Positions 5,212 through 58,522 of a stretch of DNA of 64,000 nt are shown in pieces. Origin of the DNA: Alistipes sp. GTDB taxonomy: Bacteria > Bacteroidota > Bacteroidia > Bacteroidales > Rikenellaceae. A program made the translations under genes and the position numbers. The stretch lies in NCBI GenBank assembly GCA_017536555.1, contig JAFXHE010000017.1:58719-122718 (forward strand). The letters run 5' to 3'. Numbering within the stretch: position 1 is the first letter of the stretch; the number at the start of each line of letters is the position of its first letter. The notes below the pieces were generated by a model that searched no databases, was not told the origin of the DNA, and saw nothing but the letters and a program-made list of their open reading frames with translations.

Positions 5212-6084
5212 TTATCTTGAGTCTACGCCCCACATCATCTTCTCTCTTAACGTGTCGTAGAAGCTATTATTATGCGGCGTAGCCAAAATTAGTGGTTCGG
5301 CGGCAATGCGCAGTGTGATTGTTGCACCATCTTTGAGGGTGTATGTGCGGTTGTCGGCAGAGAGAAATGCCTCGCCACCGCGCGAATCAAGACGCAGGGT
5401 TATTGTCGCGCTGTCGGGTACTACCACAGGACGCATCGTGAGGTTGTGGGGTGCTAACGGCGATAGAACGATGCAGCGACACATAGGGTCTACAACGGGG
5501 CCTCCTGCACTCAACGAGTAGGCGGTGGAGCCTGTGGGTGTCGATACCACGATGCCGTCGCCGTGGTATGTTGCTACAGTGTCGTTGTTGATGCGGGTCT
5601 CGACGCTAACCATTGTTGCGCCGTGGCGATGTATAGCTATCTCGTTTAGGGCAAGACACTTGTTGTAATCAAAGACTATGTCTCCTTCAACCTGCAGCAT
5701 AGAGCGTTGCGTGAATTTCAGTTCACGACGTGCCATACGTTCAAAGAGGGTCTCTATGCCCTTGCCATCATCGGCAGTGAGATACCCTAATCGTCCGCAG
5801 TTGATGCCTACGACGGGAATGTCGCGCGACGGGAGCATACCCACAGCCTCGAGGAGTGTGCCGTCGCCACCATACGTTACCATAATGTCATCACCCGTCG
5901 TTGAAGGGTTGTCGCGGTAGATATGCTCCGCACCGATGACGATGCCCGTGAGGCTTTTGATGGCTGCTGCAAGCTCGCTGTTTAGCGTGTAGTTCATACC
6001 TAAACGCTCGATGGTTGCAAGCATAGTGCGCAGCTGCTCTGGATGGTGGTTTACCTGTGGACGTGAAAAAAGTATGATGTTCAT
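5212..6084 (-). CDS. nadK: NAD kinase
   Basis: NadK phosphorylates NAD to NADP. The 290-residue protein shows the GGDGT motif (residues about 72-76, [12 protein letters not shown]), the NCGRLGYL block, and the C-terminal substrate site [21 protein letters not shown]. Length and motif order match the bacterial family. It lies 114 bp upstream of uppS on the same strand and is divergent from pdxJ; this arrangement is common in Bacteroidales. Confidence 0.95.
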
Positions 6085-6107
6085 TGTGATGAAATGAAAA
6101 AAAATCG

Positions 6108-6115
6108 TAACTTTG
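6108..6115 (+). promoter_or_regulatory. -7 box of the pdxJ-cca unit
   Basis: TAACTTTG matches TAnnTTTG. It falls inside the longest possible reading frame of pdxJ, so the upstream ATG at 6094 would not be transcribed. This decides the pdxJ start at 6139. Confidence 0.7.
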
Positions 6116-6138
6116 TCTTCCGCAAATATACGAAAATT

Positions 6139-6864
6139 ATGACAAAGTTAAGCGTAAACATCAATAAGATTGCCGTTGTGCGCAATTCGCGTGGCGGAAA
6201 TGTGCCTAATTTGCTAAAGGCAGCACTCGATATAGAGCGTTTTGGTGCTGATGGCATCACTGTTCATCCGCGCCCCGATGCACGCCACATTCGTTATCAG
6301 GATGTGCGTGACCTCAAGGCAAATATCGCCACAGAGCTAAATGTTGAGGGTAACCCTATCGAGAGCTTCTGTGAGCTTGTCGAGGAGGTGCGTCCTGCGC
6401 AGGTAACACTCGTGCCCGATGCCGAAGATGCCATAACATCGTCGGCGGGCTGGGACACTATCAAGCATCGCGACTTTCTTGTGGCTATGTGTGAGCGTTT
6501 CCACAAGGCGGGAATACGTGTGAGCATCTTTGTTGACCCTGTTCCCGAGATGGTTGCTGGCGCGAAGGCGTGTGGTGCAGATCGCGTAGAGCTATACACC
6601 GAGGCGTATGCAAGTGGCTATGCCGAGAATCGTGAGGCTGCTATCGAGCCTTATGTCGTAGCTGCCGAGGAGGCGCGTCGTCAGGGCTTGGGACTTAATG
6701 CTGGACACGACCTCAATACCGAGAACCTCCAATACTTCATCGAGCGCATACCGTGGGTCGATGAGGTGTCGATAGGTCACGCCCTTATTAGCGATGCGCT
6801 CTACTGGGGTTTGGAGAATACCGTGGAGACATATCAGCGTTGTATACGTAGAGCCAAGAGGTAG
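6139..6864 (+). CDS. pdxJ: Pyridoxine 5'-phosphate synthase
   Basis: PdxJ condenses 1-deoxyxylulose 5-phosphate with 3-amino-1-hydroxyacetone phosphate to form pyridoxine 5'-phosphate in vitamin B6 synthesis. The 241-residue protein begins [20 protein letters not shown], the family start, and contains [56 protein letters not shown] and [13 protein letters not shown], covering the TIM barrel and active-site loops. A start at 6094 is possible by frame but would include the promoter box. cca starts 3 nt after its stop. Confidence 0.96.
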
Positions 6865-6867
6865 CCG

Positions 6868-8268
6868 ATGCCGTTGAAACATCCCATATTCAAGCATATC
6901 ACATCCGTCGTTGACCGTATGGGTGTGGAGGCGTATGTCGTGGGTGGATATGTGCGCGACTACTACCTACATCGCCCCTCTACCGACATAGATGTCGTGG
7001 TGGTGGGTAGCGGTGTGGCTGTTGCCGAGGAGTTAGGGCGTCAGCTCGGTGTCAAGGTTACGGTGTACCGCACCTACGGTACCGCAATGCTACGTTGGCG
7101 AGGCTCCGAGGTAGAGTTTGTTGGCGCACGCCGTGAGAGCTACACCCCCGAGTCGCGTAACCCGCACGTTGAGCCTGGTACGTTGGAGGATGATCAGCGT
7201 AGGCGCGACTTCACGATAAATGCTATGGCGTGGTCGGTCAATGGCGCGACGTTTGGTGAACTTGTCGATCCGTTTGGTGGTATGGATGACCTTGATGACT
7301 GTATCATACGTACGCCGTGTGAGCCTGAACGCACATTCTCCGATGACCCTTTGCGTATGATGCGTGCTGTGCGCTTTGCGTCGCAGTTAGGCTTCGACAT
7401 CGACGACTCTACGTTTGAGGGTATATGCCGTCAAGCGGAGCGCATAAATATCATATCGCGTGAACGTATATCGGTGGAGCTTAATAAGATACTTGCTTCA
7501 CCTGCGCCGTCAATAGGTCTTACCCTTATGCGCACATCAGGCTTGTTGCGATATGTGCTTCCCGAGTTGGATCGTATGGCGGGTATAGAGCGGAGAGGCA
7601 AGCACGCCCACAAGGATAACTTCGAGCATACTATGAAGGTGCTGGATAATGTAGCACGTCGCACAGATGATTTGTGGCTGCGCTGGGCAGCACTACTCCA
7701 CGATATAGGTAAACCGCAGACCAAGGCTTACGACTCACACGCAGGGTGGACATTCCATCAGCACGAGGCTGTAGGCTCGAAGATTGTGCCACAGATATTT
7801 CGCCGCTTGAAGCTACCTATGAATGAGCCTATGCGCTTTGTGCAGAAGATGGTCTTTCTGCATATGCGTCCTATAGTCCTCTCTGAAGATATGGTCACCG
7901 ACTCGGCTGTGCGCCGACTGCTCTTTGAGGCGGGCGATGATGTCGAGAAGTTGATGTTGTTGTGCGAGGCAGATATCACCTCGGGCAATGATAATAAGGT
8001 GAGGTTGTTCCTCAAGAACTTTGAGCTCGTGCGTGAGAAGATGCGCGATCTTGAGGAGCGTGACCGTATACGTAACTTTCAGCCGCCCGTCACTGGCGAC
8101 CTTATAATGCGCACATATAACCTCCCGCCGTCGTCGGTAATTGGCGAGATTAAGGAGGTCATTAAGAATGCTATCCTCGATGGGGTGATACCTAACGACT
8201 ATGATGCTGCCTATCGGCTTATGGAGGAGGAGGCGGAGCGTCGTGGCATAGCGCGCCCCAAACAGTAG
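6868..8268 (+). CDS. cca: CCA-adding tRNA nucleotidyltransferase / poly(A) polymerase family, HD domain
   Basis: A 466-residue cytoplasmic enzyme that repairs or adds the tRNA 3' CCA end. The nucleotidyltransferase head has GGYVRD, the catalytic pair in STDIDVVVVG, and RRRDFTINAMAW followed by LVDPFGGMDDL. The RNA-binding middle is followed by an HD domain at about residues 265-330 (AALLHDIGKP...FHQHEAVGSK). The ATG directly follows the pdxJ stop, so the two form one unit. Whether it makes full CCA or acts as a poly(A) polymerase cannot be read here; CCA addition is the default. Confidence 0.92.
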   Translation: MPLKHPIFKHITSVVDRMGVEAYVVGGYVRDYYLHRPSTDIDVVVVGSGVAVAEELGRQLGVKVTVYRTYGTAMLRWRGSEVEFVGARRESYTPESRNPHVEPGTLEDDQRRRDFTINAMAWSVNGATFGELVDPFGGMDDLDDCIIRTPCEPERTFSDDPLRMMRAVRFASQLGFDIDDSTFEGICRQAERINIISRERISVELNKILASPAPSIGLTLMRTSGLLRYVLPELDRMAGIERRGKHAHKDNFEHTMKVLDNVARRTDDLWLRWAALLHDIGKPQTKAYDSHAGWTFHQHEAVGSKIVPQIFRRLKLPMNEPMRFVQKMVFLHMRPIVLSEDMVTDSAVRRLLFEAGDDVEKLMLLCEADITSGNDNKVRLFLKNFELVREKMRDLEERDRIRNFQPPVTGDLIMRTYNLPPSSVIGEIKEVIKNAILDGVIPNDYDAAYRLMEEEAERRGIARPKQ

Positions 8269-8336
8269 TAGGTGTTACATAGTGTTCCGATAAGGTGTAT
8301 ATCGAGCTGCGAGCGAGTGTGTTGTGGTTGCCACAA

Positions 8337-8915
8337 TCAGCGTTGCAGCTCGATATATTCTGTATACACGAGCCGCGTGTTGGGGTTTGACGACCACATC
8401 TCTTGACGTATGGCGCGCGTGCCAAAGCGCATAAACCACCAGCGTCGTGGCACACGGTGTACCACCTGGCGTATCGTGTCAACAGAGTGGAGTGAGTAGT
8501 GTATGCTGTCGCGTAGCAATATCCCAGCCAACCTGCTCCATTTATCCGAGTAATTAAATATTTTAACTGTGTCGTGAACGATTATCGTGTCACGTAGCGG
8601 TAGTGTGCCTTCGTGGTGGCTTTCGAGGGCTGTGCGGGCGTAGCTCTCGGCGCGGCGTAACCGTATGCCGAGTTTGCGTATATGCTCGGTGTCAGCCTCA
8701 CGCAGAGCGCGGAACTCGTCGAGTTGCAGGGTTAGTTTCTCCACCGAAGCGGCACTCGTTGAGTCGCGTAGACGGTAGAGTGTAATGCTCTCGATAAGAG
8801 CGTGCTGGTTGCTGTTTAAGCGGCTGTTTTCGCGTCGTAAATCGGCTATGATATAGCCGAAGACGATGGTGGTGGCAGTAGCAATGACCGCCACAATGAA
8901 TAGTAGTCGTTTCAT
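8337..8915 (-). CDS. Membrane-anchored coiled-coil protein, DUF6549-like (phage-linked type)
   Basis: A 192-residue protein with one N-terminal membrane segment (residues about 4-24), a charged coiled coil (27-95), then a conserved-looking C-terminal part with VHRVPRRWWFMRFGTRAIRQ and NPNTRLVYTEYIEL. I recognise this layout from small Bacteroidales proteins that often sit in prophages or near lysis genes, possibly acting like inner-membrane spanins; that role is inference. No other phage gene is nearby, so it looks like a domesticated or orphan copy. A -7 box lies at 9018-9011. Confidence 0.6.
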   Translation of the reverse strand: MKRLLFIVAVIATATTIVFGYIIADLRRENSRLNSNQHALIESITLYRLRDSTSAASVEKLTLQLDEFRALREADTEHIRKLGIRLRRAESYARTALESHHEGTLPLRDTIIVHDTVKIFNYSDKWSRLAGILLRDSIHYSLHSVDTIRQVVHRVPRRWWFMRFGTRAIRQEMWSSNPNTRLVYTEYIELQR

Positions 8916-23394: not shown

Positions 23395-24738
23395 ATGAAA
23401 ATAGCAAAATATTGCACCACTATCCTTGTGTTGATGTCTGTGGCACTGCCCACATCACTCGTTGCACAATCTCGCGTCGCACGCTCGGAGTTTATATGCT
23501 ATGACAAGCGTGAAGATGCCAAGCGTGATGTGCGCACCAATATAGACAAGTATGTCGACTTTAAGCCAGCGTTGCAGTTTGAGAATAGTGAGCCTGGTGT
23601 TGTGCGTGCTGTCTACGAGCAGGTGGTAAACGTCCCTGCTGCGTGGAACGACTATAACGCCTATCTGCACACGGAGAATGTCGGTGCTGACTACACTATC
23701 TTTGTCAATGGCAAGCAGATAACATCTCCTGTTGATGCCTTCACGCCCACCGATCACTTTATCTCGCCATATCTCGATCAGGGAGATAATACGATAGCTG
23801 TCGTCGTCGTTGATGAGGCGTATATGTCACTTCTTGACGAGGGCTTGCAGCAGCCCCAGCGCGAGCGATTTACAAATAGCTATATCTTTGCGCAGCGTCG
23901 CCTTGCTGTCTATGACTTCAAGGTGCGTATGTTGCCCGATTCGCTCGATAGATTTGCACAGTTGCAACTCGACGTTGTCGTGGATAACTCATTCTCTACG
24001 CCCGAGACTATTGAGGTGGGCTATGACCTCTATGCCCCCGATGGCAAGCTTATGGAGTACAGCGTAAACGACATATCGCTGGCAGGCTATTCGCGCGACA
24101 CGTTACACTTCAAGCCCTATATATACCACTCAAACCCCAATCGCTGGTCGGCAACTAATCCCAAGCTATACGACCTTACGCTGTATGTTAAGCGCAGTGG
24201 CATCCTATGGGAGTATATACCTTTGAAGGTGGGCTTTGCAGAGTATGGCTTCACCGAGTCTGGCGATATCACACTCTTTGGTAAGACGTTGACACTCAAG
24301 ACTACACGATATAATGCGGCAGCTGATAAGGCTACTACCGAGCGCGAAATACGTTCACTCAAAACAAAGGGATTTAATACTCTTTGTCCCGATTATCCGC
24401 AGCCCAAGTGGTTCTATGCGCTGTGCGATAAGGTGGGTATATATGTTATCGACTGTGCGGCTATCTCGTCGCCCACAAACCACGAAAATCGAGCTGTTGA
24501 CGGTACACCCGCCAACCAGCCATATCTGCTTGATGACTACCTGCGACGTGTAGAAACGATGTATCGTCGTGCGCAAAACCACGTCTGTATCATCGCCTTC
24601 TCGTTGGGAGGTGATAGCTCGGGCAATGGCTACAATATGTACAAGGCGTATGAGCTGTTGAAGTCCTATGGCGACAGCCGTCCTATCATCTACCTCGGTG
24701 CCGAGGAGGAGTGGAATAGCGATATTGTGGCATTGTAA
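23395..24738 (+). CDS. Degenerate GH2-like protein (beta-galactosidase fold, catalytic residues lost)
   Basis: A 447-residue exported protein (signal peptide to about residue 25) that resembles GH2 enzymes: a jelly-roll sugar-binding domain (about 45-170, YLHTENVGADYTIFVNGK), an Ig-like domain (about 180-290, NRWSATNPKLYDLTL), and the first half of a TIM barrel with YPQPKWFYALCDKVGIYVID. The acid/base motif, normally SLGNES, reads SLGGDS here, so the catalytic Glu is missing, and the chain ends before the nucleophile. The reading frame is intact, so it is probably a binding or structural pseudoenzyme. rlmH starts 12 nt after its stop. Confidence 0.75.
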   Translation: MKIAKYCTTILVLMSVALPTSLVAQSRVARSEFICYDKREDAKRDVRTNIDKYVDFKPALQFENSEPGVVRAVYEQVVNVPAAWNDYNAYLHTENVGADYTIFVNGKQITSPVDAFTPTDHFISPYLDQGDNTIAVVVVDEAYMSLLDEGLQQPQRERFTNSYIFAQRRLAVYDFKVRMLPDSLDRFAQLQLDVVVDNSFSTPETIEVGYDLYAPDGKLMEYSVNDISLAGYSRDTLHFKPYIYHSNPNRWSATNPKLYDLTLYVKRSGILWEYIPLKVGFAEYGFTESGDITLFGKTLTLKTTRYNAAADKATTEREIRSLKTKGFNTLCPDYPQPKWFYALCDKVGIYVIDCAAISSPTNHENRAVDGTPANQPYLLDDYLRRVETMYRRAQNHVCIIAFSLGGDSSGNGYNMYKAYELLKSYGDSRPIIYLGAEEEWNSDIVAL

Positions 24739-53871: not shown

Positions 53872-55167
53872 ATGATTAAGGATTTTGTTCAGGAGCTCGA
53901 GTGGCGTGGTATGATTCATACAATTATGCCTGGTGCCAAGGAGCAGTTACAGAAGGAGATGACAACGGCATATTTGGGTATTGATCCTACTGCCGACTCG
54001 CTACATATCGGTCACCTCGTGGGTGTGATGATTTTGAAGCACTTTCAGATGTGTGGACACCGCCCAATAGCACTTATTGGAGGTGCAACAGGTATGATTG
54101 GCGATCCATCGGGTAAGTCACAGGAGCGTAACCTCCTCGATGAGGCGACATTGCGCCACAACCAGGAGGCTATTAAGAACCAGTTGGCAAAGCTTATCGA
54201 CTTTGACTCTGATGCCGAGAATCACGCGCTGCTTGTTAACAACTACGACTGGATGAAGGAGTTCTCGTTCCTCGACTTTGCACGCGATATCGGTAAGTGC
54301 ATCACCGTAAACTATATGATGGCGAAGGACTCTGTGAAGAAGCGTTTCAATGGCGAGGGCGACGGTATGTCGTTCACGGAGTTTACCTACCAGCTGTTGC
54401 AGGGCTATGACTTCTTGCACCTCTATCAGCAGTACAACTGTAAGGTGCAGCTCGGTGGCGCAGACCAGTGGGGTAATATCACAACAGGTACGGAGCTTAT
54501 CCGTCGTAAGCTCGGCAGCGAGGCAGAGGCATTTGCTATCACTTGTCCGCTTATCACAAAGGCTGATGGTACAAAGTTCGGCAAGACGGAGAGTGGTAAC
54601 GTGTGGCTCGATGCACGCTACACATCGCCCTATAAGTTCTATCAGTTCTGGCTCAATGTCAGCGATGACGATGCAAAGCGTTATATAAAAATCTTCACGC
54701 TGCTTGACCGCGAGACTATCGAGTCGCTTATTCGTGAGCACGACGAGGCACCACATTTGCGCGTATTGCAGAGACGTTTGGCAGAGGAGCTTACAACGAT
54801 GATACACTCGGCAGAGGAGCTTGCAAAGGCAAAGGAGGCATCAAACATACTCTTCGGTAATGCTACATCCGAGACGTTGCGCTCACTCGACGAGCAGACT
54901 CTCCTTCAGGTATTTGAGGGTGTGCCTCAATTCACAATGTCGCGTGTCGACCTCGGCAAGACGTTTATAGATTTCGTCTCTGAGGTGTGCAAGGTATTCC
55001 CCTCAAAGGGTGAGTGCCGTAAGATGGTGCAGGGCGGTGGTGTGCAGCTCAACAAGGAGAAGGTTGTTGACCCTATGCGCATAATCACGGAGAGCGATCT
55101 TATTGCAGGCAAGTATATCTTGGTGCAGCGCGGTAAGAAGAATTATTACCTTATCACTGTTGAGTAA
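53872..55167 (+). CDS. tyrS: Tyrosyl-tRNA synthetase
   Basis: A 431-residue class I synthetase: the HIGH motif is in [27 protein letters not shown] follows, GGADQWGNI gives the tyrosine site, the KMSKS loop reads KFGKTES, and an S4 RNA-binding domain lies at the C-terminus (about 360-431, [19 protein letters not shown]). This is the TyrRS form with KFGKT found in most bacteria. folB follows directly. Confidence 0.97.
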
Positions 55168-56908: not shown

Positions 56909-58522
56909 ATGGCTGATTTCATCTATCAGGAGCCGTTTCCTATCCAGCAGGATAAGACGGAGTATCGCCTTTTGACAAAGGACTATGTTAAGGTTGTAGA
57001 GTGCGATGGTCGCAAGATTTTGAAGGTCGACCCCAAGGGTCTTGAGTTGTTGGCAAAGGAGGCATATAGCGATGTGTCGTTCTATTTGCGTGCCTCACAC
57101 CTTCAGAAGTTGGCAAATATCCTTGAGGATCCCGAGGCTACCGACAACGATAAGTTTGTGGCTTACACAATGCTTATGAACCAGTGTGTTGCTGCCGAGG
57201 GCGAGTTGCCCACGTGTCAGGATACAGGTACTGCTATCTGCATTGGTCATAAGGGCGAGGATGTATACACAGGTACTAACGACGCAGAGTGCATCTCACG
57301 CGGTGTATACGAGACATATAAGGAGCGTAATTTGCGCTACTCACAGGTTGTGCCCTTCACAATGACAGAGGAGAAGAACTCGGCTACAAACCTCCCCGCA
57401 CAGATTGATATCTACGCTGGTCACCCAGGTATGGAGTATGACTTCTTGTTCATCACCAAGGGTGGTGGCTCGGCAAATAAGACCTTCCTCTATCAGCAGA
57501 CCAAGGCGTTGCTCAACGAGGAGTCGCTCACCAAGTTCATTAAGGAGCATATCCTCGACCTCGGTACGTCGGCTTGTCCTCCCTACCACCTCGCTATATG
57601 TATTGGTGGTACATCGGCAGAGATGTGCTTGTCAACAGTTAAGAAGGCATCTGCTGGCTACCTCGACGAGCTGCCTACATCGGGTAATGAGGGTGGTCGT
57701 TGCTTCCGTGATCTCGAGTGGGAGGCAAAGGTTGAGAAGATATGCCAGGAGATAGGTCTTGGTGCATAGTTTGGTGGTAAGTACTACATCCACGATGTAC
57801 GTGTCATCCGCGCACCTCGTCACGCTGCCTCTTGCCCCGTTGCTATCGGTGTAAGCTGCTCTGCTGACCGTAACATCAAGGCGAAGATTACCCCCGATGG
57901 TATCTTCCTTGAGCAGCTTGAGAAGAACCCTGCACGCTTCCTTCCCGCACAGGCTCCCGCAATGTCGCCCGCAGTAGACATCGACCTTGATGAGGGTATG
58001 GATAAGGTGCGTGAAACTTTGTCGAAGTATCCTATTAAGACACGTCTTAACCTTAAGGGTACGTTGGTTGTTGCTCGTGATATCGCTCACGCACGCATTA
58101 AGCAGATGCTCGATGAGGGTAAGCCTATGCCCGACTACTTCAAGAACCACCCTGTATACTATGCAGGCCCTGCCAAGACTCCTGCAGGTATGCCTTCAGG
58201 CTCGTTTGGCCCTACCACAGCTGGTCGTATGGACTCATACGTAGACCTCTTCCAGAAGGCTGGTGGCTCTATGGTTATGGTGGCAAAGGGTAACCGCTCA
58301 CAGCAGGTTACAGACGCTTGTAAGAACAATGGCGGCTTCTATCTTGGCTCTATTGGCGGCCCTGCAGCTATCCTTGCAAAGAACTCTATTAAGTCGGTAG
58401 AGGTTGTCGACTTCGAGGAGCTCGGTATGGAGGCTGTGCGTAAGATTTATGTTGAGAACTTCCCTGCATTTATCATCGTCGATGATAAGGGTAATGACTT
58501 CTTCGCTGACTTCGCTCACTAA
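56909..58522 (+). pseudogene. fumA: Class I fumarate hydratase, interrupted by one in-frame amber codon
   Basis: An iron-sulfur fumarase, 537 residues if read through. The cluster Cys are C103 (PTCQDTGTA), C223 (TSACPPYHL) and C317 (GVSCSADR). Codon 287 (57767-57769) is TAG in ...[14 protein letters not shown]; the family has Gln at this place (GAQFGGKY), so a CAG-to-TAG change explains it. Frame, codon use and conservation are intact on both sides, so the change is recent, a sequencing error, or read through. The 286-residue N-terminal product would lack C317. The next in-frame ATG is at 57962. Other genes here end in TAG normally. Confidence 0.9.

Follow-up and report, generated by a model that had tools for sequence, protein, structure and literature searches.

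The locus raises the question of what a single TAG codon within an otherwise open class I fumarase gene of an Alistipes draft genome signifies: whether the base is wrong, the gene has been inactivated, or the codon is read by the cell as an amino acid. We conclude with high confidence that the TAG reflects a nonsense change of one base, isolated and private to a single draft, and that no decoding mechanism lies behind it; nothing about it calls for a new mechanism. The window, by which we mean the whole stretch of 64,000 nucleotides that was analyzed (G000:C17:58719-122718), belongs to a draft of 1,630,255 bases in 21 contigs that is 78.88% complete and 0.37% contaminated. The parts of the gene, together with the stops encountered in other drafts of the genus, are collected in Table 1.

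Table 1. The fumarase gene and its parts in the window, and in-frame stops in fumarase, rpoB and rpoC genes of the genus
Feature	Position	Strand	Remark
Class I fumarase gene (fumA/B type)	56909..58522	+	538-codon frame, one internal stop
In-frame TAG, codon 287	57767..57769	+	Codon comparison with other fumarases
Open frame to the stop codon, inclusive; 286 aa with a truncated alpha domain	56909..57769	+	PF05681 positions 4-229 of 270
Frame 3' of the stop: the closing 38 aa of the alpha domain, with C317, and Fumerase_C	57770..58522	+	
Stop in the studied fumarase, among fumarase rows listed	TAG, codon 287		
Stop in the G145 fumarase, among fumarase rows listed	TAA, codon 195		
Stop in the G130 fumarase, among fumarase rows listed	TAA, codon 18		
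G156 rpoB (L206)	TAA at Tyr 74		Own-gene numbering
G001 rpoC (L203)	TAA at Tyr 136		Own-gene numbering; nonsense codon within the alignment
G150 rpoC (L204)	TAG at Glu 1037		Own-gene numbering; nonsense codon within the alignment
G153 rpoC	Stop at alignment break		May be an indel

The frame begins with ATG at 56909, ends with TAA at 58520-58522 and is fully open apart from codon 287, and in this we see the same gene as an earlier note on this DNA, which had described 538 codons broken by that TAG only. The frame of a class I fumarase gene is uninterrupted, and it is by the stop at this codon that the gene departs from the class. When the TAG is read as Gln, both domains of a class I fumarate hydratase gene are present in one frame, PF05681 (Fumerase) at residues 49-325 and PF05683 (Fumerase_C) at residues 331-534, and the resulting protein shares 97-98% identity with the nearest intact fumarases among the matches listed. 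By profile matching, the piece preceding the stop covers most of PF05681 (Table 1), and the piece following it covers PF05681 positions 232-269 of 270 and Fumerase_C positions 1-204 of 205. The Cys residues of TCQDTG, SACPP and SCSADR, which we take from E. coli FumA to be the ligands of the [4Fe-4S] cluster, are all encoded in the 538-codon frame, the last of them, C317, lying 3' of the stop; the earlier note had claimed as much, and all three motifs were located. Scores for the fumarase are above the cut-offs of the domain models TIGR00722 and TIGR00723 and under the strict cut-offs of all three full-length NCBIfam models, NF011919, NF011920 and NF011921. The gene has in common with the E. 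coli FumA/FumB-type class I fumarate hydratase (NF011920, PF05681 plus PF05683) a match over its whole length, the two domains and all three Cys motifs, and differs from it by the one in-frame TAG and by sub-cut-off full-length model scores.

The comparison of codon 287 drew on 151 rows from the loci compared, corresponding to 139 distinct gene sequences. The codon is CAG in 102 of these, CAA in 36 and TAG in 1, the fumarase studied here, so that the Gln (of GAQFGGKY) previously proposed as the family residue at the stop is encoded by all 138 of the other distinct sequences; among the 30 others that are at least 95% identical, 29 have CAG and 1 has CAA, with no stop. The TAG is thus private to one draft among the sequences compared. 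A second strain of the same species was not found among the best 80 loci of the contig scan, where protein identity reached at most 97% and from which records very near the window may have been omitted. By DNA, the nearest fumarase is 88.9% identical, and the named relatives whose fumarases lie closest include Alistipes drafts from the gut of cattle, yak, water buffalo, sheep and water deer. In five syntenic stretches, the fumarase is 96.5-97.6% identical, above the neighboring proteins except for a partial alignment of tyrosyl-tRNA synthetase at 98.8%. The window gene at 53872-55167 looks like this synthetase, and its homologue in G011:C89:26000-45000 (L178; approximately 5683-6971) aligns as two pieces, at 98.8% and 85.5%, a split identity that may point to a frameshift, or to a chimeric join, in the G011 draft. 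Three of the alignments of neighboring genes in kin contain one stop each, and a scan of viral sequences gave one partial fumarase, at 73%.

Amber read-through was among the options raised in the earlier note. A tRNA that reads UAG as Gln would produce full-length fumarase and would sit well with the Gln that kin have at codon 287 and with the openness of the remainder of the frame, but we consider it very improbable, and neither suppression nor recoding has support. The check that had been proposed, for a tRNA with a CUA anticodon, found none, by ARAGORN, among the 29 tRNAs detected in this 78.88% complete genome; a relaxed search added no further tRNAs, and the ordinary tRNA-Gln species with TTG and CTG anticodons are both in the list. 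Since tRNAs for Ala, Asp, His, Ile and Phe are absent from it, the list is incomplete, and a suppressor could be encoded on a missing contig. Recoding would be expected to place UAG at the same codon in relatives, and 0 of the 138 other distinct sequences have it there; it would also be expected to bring UAG into several genes and to make it a rare terminator, whereas no second TAG-split gene was found in 433 kb of the genome, and the 155 long ORFs in that sample end with TAA in 92 cases, TAG in 59 and TGA in 4. Global recoding of TAG, which the earlier note had already thought unlikely, was rejected on the grounds that TAG is a normal terminator here. Among the long ORFs of this 433-kb sample, TGA is the rare terminator (4 of 155).

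A more elaborate proposal, in which a UAG-reading tRNA-Gln from the missing part of the genome and occasional amber read-through of fumarase tune succinate fermentation, is more improbable still. UAG-to-Gln codes are described for eukaryotic nuclear genomes in passages of PMC8629427, whose introduction states that the bacterial code changes then known all reassign UGA; the same source describes a genetic-code screen in yeasts that was misled by in-frame stops in pseudogenes. The fumarase studied here is like the UAG-to-Gln codes of those passages in having UAG at a Gln position, and it differs from stop reassignment and amber suppression in that no matching tRNA was found, TAG is a common terminator and one gene only is involved.

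The position of the stop bears on whether the two pieces could work together, the stop parting alpha and beta subunits as in the two-subunit class I fumarases. The downstream piece has virtually the whole of the Fumerase_C profile, and an ATG at 57962 starts a 186-aa frame, but this ATG is codon 352 and lies already within Fumerase_C, and the break does not coincide with the domain boundary but interrupts PF05681, after profile position 229 and before position 232 of 270. The stop falls within the alpha domain, approximately 40 profile positions short of its end, and the front piece is therefore without C317. We regard a working two-piece fumarase as the least probable of the readings considered, with almost no chance of being correct.

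The frequency of such stops was examined within the draft itself and across the genus. In-frame stops flanked by coding sequence were sought in 433 kb (27% of the genome, comprising the window and L182-L201) with a scan that is able to pass 5988 of 8090 mock breaks made in its own training ORFs and that is blind to frameshifts and to stops located 40 codons or fewer from another stop. The scan returned 11 places, and the fumarase is the only gene split within a domain. Eight of the 11 were rejected as split genes, being junctions between neighboring genes with different Pfam families on either side. L189 was also rejected, though a weak, sub-cut-off SurA_N_3 match lies on both sides of the stop, and was taken as a junction because the downstream frame opens with what appears, by eye, to be a signal peptide; the L195 pair was set aside, having no Pfam match and lying antisense to a 541-aa ORF. 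Elsewhere in the window, on the plus strand at 23395-24738, a frame of glycoside hydrolase family 2 has a TIM-barrel domain that ends at position 164 of a 302-position profile; it directly precedes an RlmH-like gene (SPOUT_MTase) and is perhaps a gene shortened at its 3' end.

Of the 180 genomes searched in the genus, 177 contain some fumarase match, a figure that includes partial or weak matches such as those of G013 and G197. Among the matches listed, 3 of 150 fumarase rows have one in-frame stop each, at three different codons. At the G145 stop site relatives have Tyr (22 TAT and 10 TAC of 33 rows, the remaining row being G145 itself), and at the G130 stop site the 25 nearest rows shown have Glu in 24 cases and no letter in the last. 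A second fumarase of G058 (G058:C195:1-20000, L032, approximately 7140-8738, minus strand) has a TAG at query position 308, where the 12 nearest rows shown all have Ser; it is probably foreign to the G058 draft, since it is only 60% identical to the fumarase studied here. As yardsticks we used rpoB and rpoC, genes in which a stop should be lethal. A match to rpoB was found in 130 of 180 genomes, with a stop in 1 of 142 rows (G156, which also has an intact rpoB), and a match to rpoC in 156 of 180, with a stop in 3 of 150 rows among the matches listed; both genes are intact in the draft studied here. With all four rpo stops counted against a total of 318,000 rpoB and rpoC codons, estimated by hand from the tables, the per-codon stop rate is approximately threefold higher in fumarase, a difference that is not significant (Fisher p = 0.15). 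At the rpoB/rpoC rate, about 1.5 stops would be expected in the 433 kb of the studied genome, and 1 was seen. Given that rpoB and rpoC contain such stops too, one stop in a draft from this genus cannot on its own be taken as evidence of biology. In the things measured, the fumarase TAG shows no difference from sporadic nonsense codons in drafts or young pseudogenes, being likewise a single-base, private change in a gene that is otherwise open; a literature search on premature stops in draft genomes returned no match, which is no claim of their absence from print.

Changes unique to the fumarase studied here were counted, the stop aside, in an alignment of 32 rows that includes one duplicate pair (L070/L094). 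There are 3 synonymous changes and 1 amino-acid change before codon 287, and 3 and 2, respectively, after it. The overall ratio of amino-acid to synonymous changes is 3:6, compared with 29:180 in kin (p = 0.13), and the ratio after the stop is 2:3, compared with 9:95 (p = 0.08), the totals for kin being row sums made by hand. The excess of amino-acid changes leans slightly to a real, loosened gene and is suggestive at most.

Assembly error and fresh mutation, the remaining options of the earlier note, are thus both retained as candidates, and we would divide the probability between them in about equal parts, with about one half falling to an error and a little under one half to a real mutation. 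If the draft carries a sequence or consensus error, for which we judge the chances to be even, the cells have a sense codon and a normal, working fumarase; the stray rpoB and rpoC stops in sister drafts, which should be lethal if real, point in this direction, as do the occurrence of some fumarase match in nearly every genome of the genus and the open, conserved state of the rest of the frame. Against an error stand the length of the contigs (C1 is 286 kb), the slight tilt of the unique changes toward amino-acid changes and the finding of one split gene only in 433 kb, from which it follows that the draft is not especially error-ridden. These same observations, together with the intact rpoB and rpoC of the draft, speak for a recent null mutation, a strain-level pseudogene tolerated through fumarate supplied from aspartate or by uptake, to which we assign a chance just short of even. 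A change from CAG to TAG is a single transition, and the nonsignificant elevation of the fumarase stop rate over that of rpoB and rpoC is in the direction that such a mutation would predict; by contrast, the lack of a stop at codon 287 in any of the 30 closest distinct sequences weighs against it, and a gene for which 177 of 180 genomes have a match is unlikely to be dispensable for long.

If the base is real, the gene would be a young null allele whose translation would end after 286 residues, and a product of this length, without C317 and the beta domain, would be inactive, so that the cell would need another source of fumarate, such as aspartate via aspartase. The search for a second fumarase that had been suggested found none in two family searches of this draft, from which approximately 21% of the genome is missing: the PF05681 search gave one match only, leaving no second class I enzyme, and the class II model gave a single match under its cut-off, which was rejected as a fumarase since its best score is as an aspartate ammonia-lyase. 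An aspartate ammonia-lyase-like gene is indeed present at G000:C9 (L176), scoring 701 bits with NF008909 (cut-off 510) and 642.3 with TIGR00839, the latter under the cut-off of 681.2. Aspartase converts aspartate to fumarate, and a fumarase null allele might therefore be tolerated in these cells.

In a wider sense, the locus is a caution: since in-frame stops are found at a low rate even in rpoB and rpoC of drafts of the genus, a lone stop in a metabolic gene gives weak support to gene loss or to recoding. A null allele here, if real, would provide a small natural test of the dispensability of fumarase when aspartate can feed fumarate.
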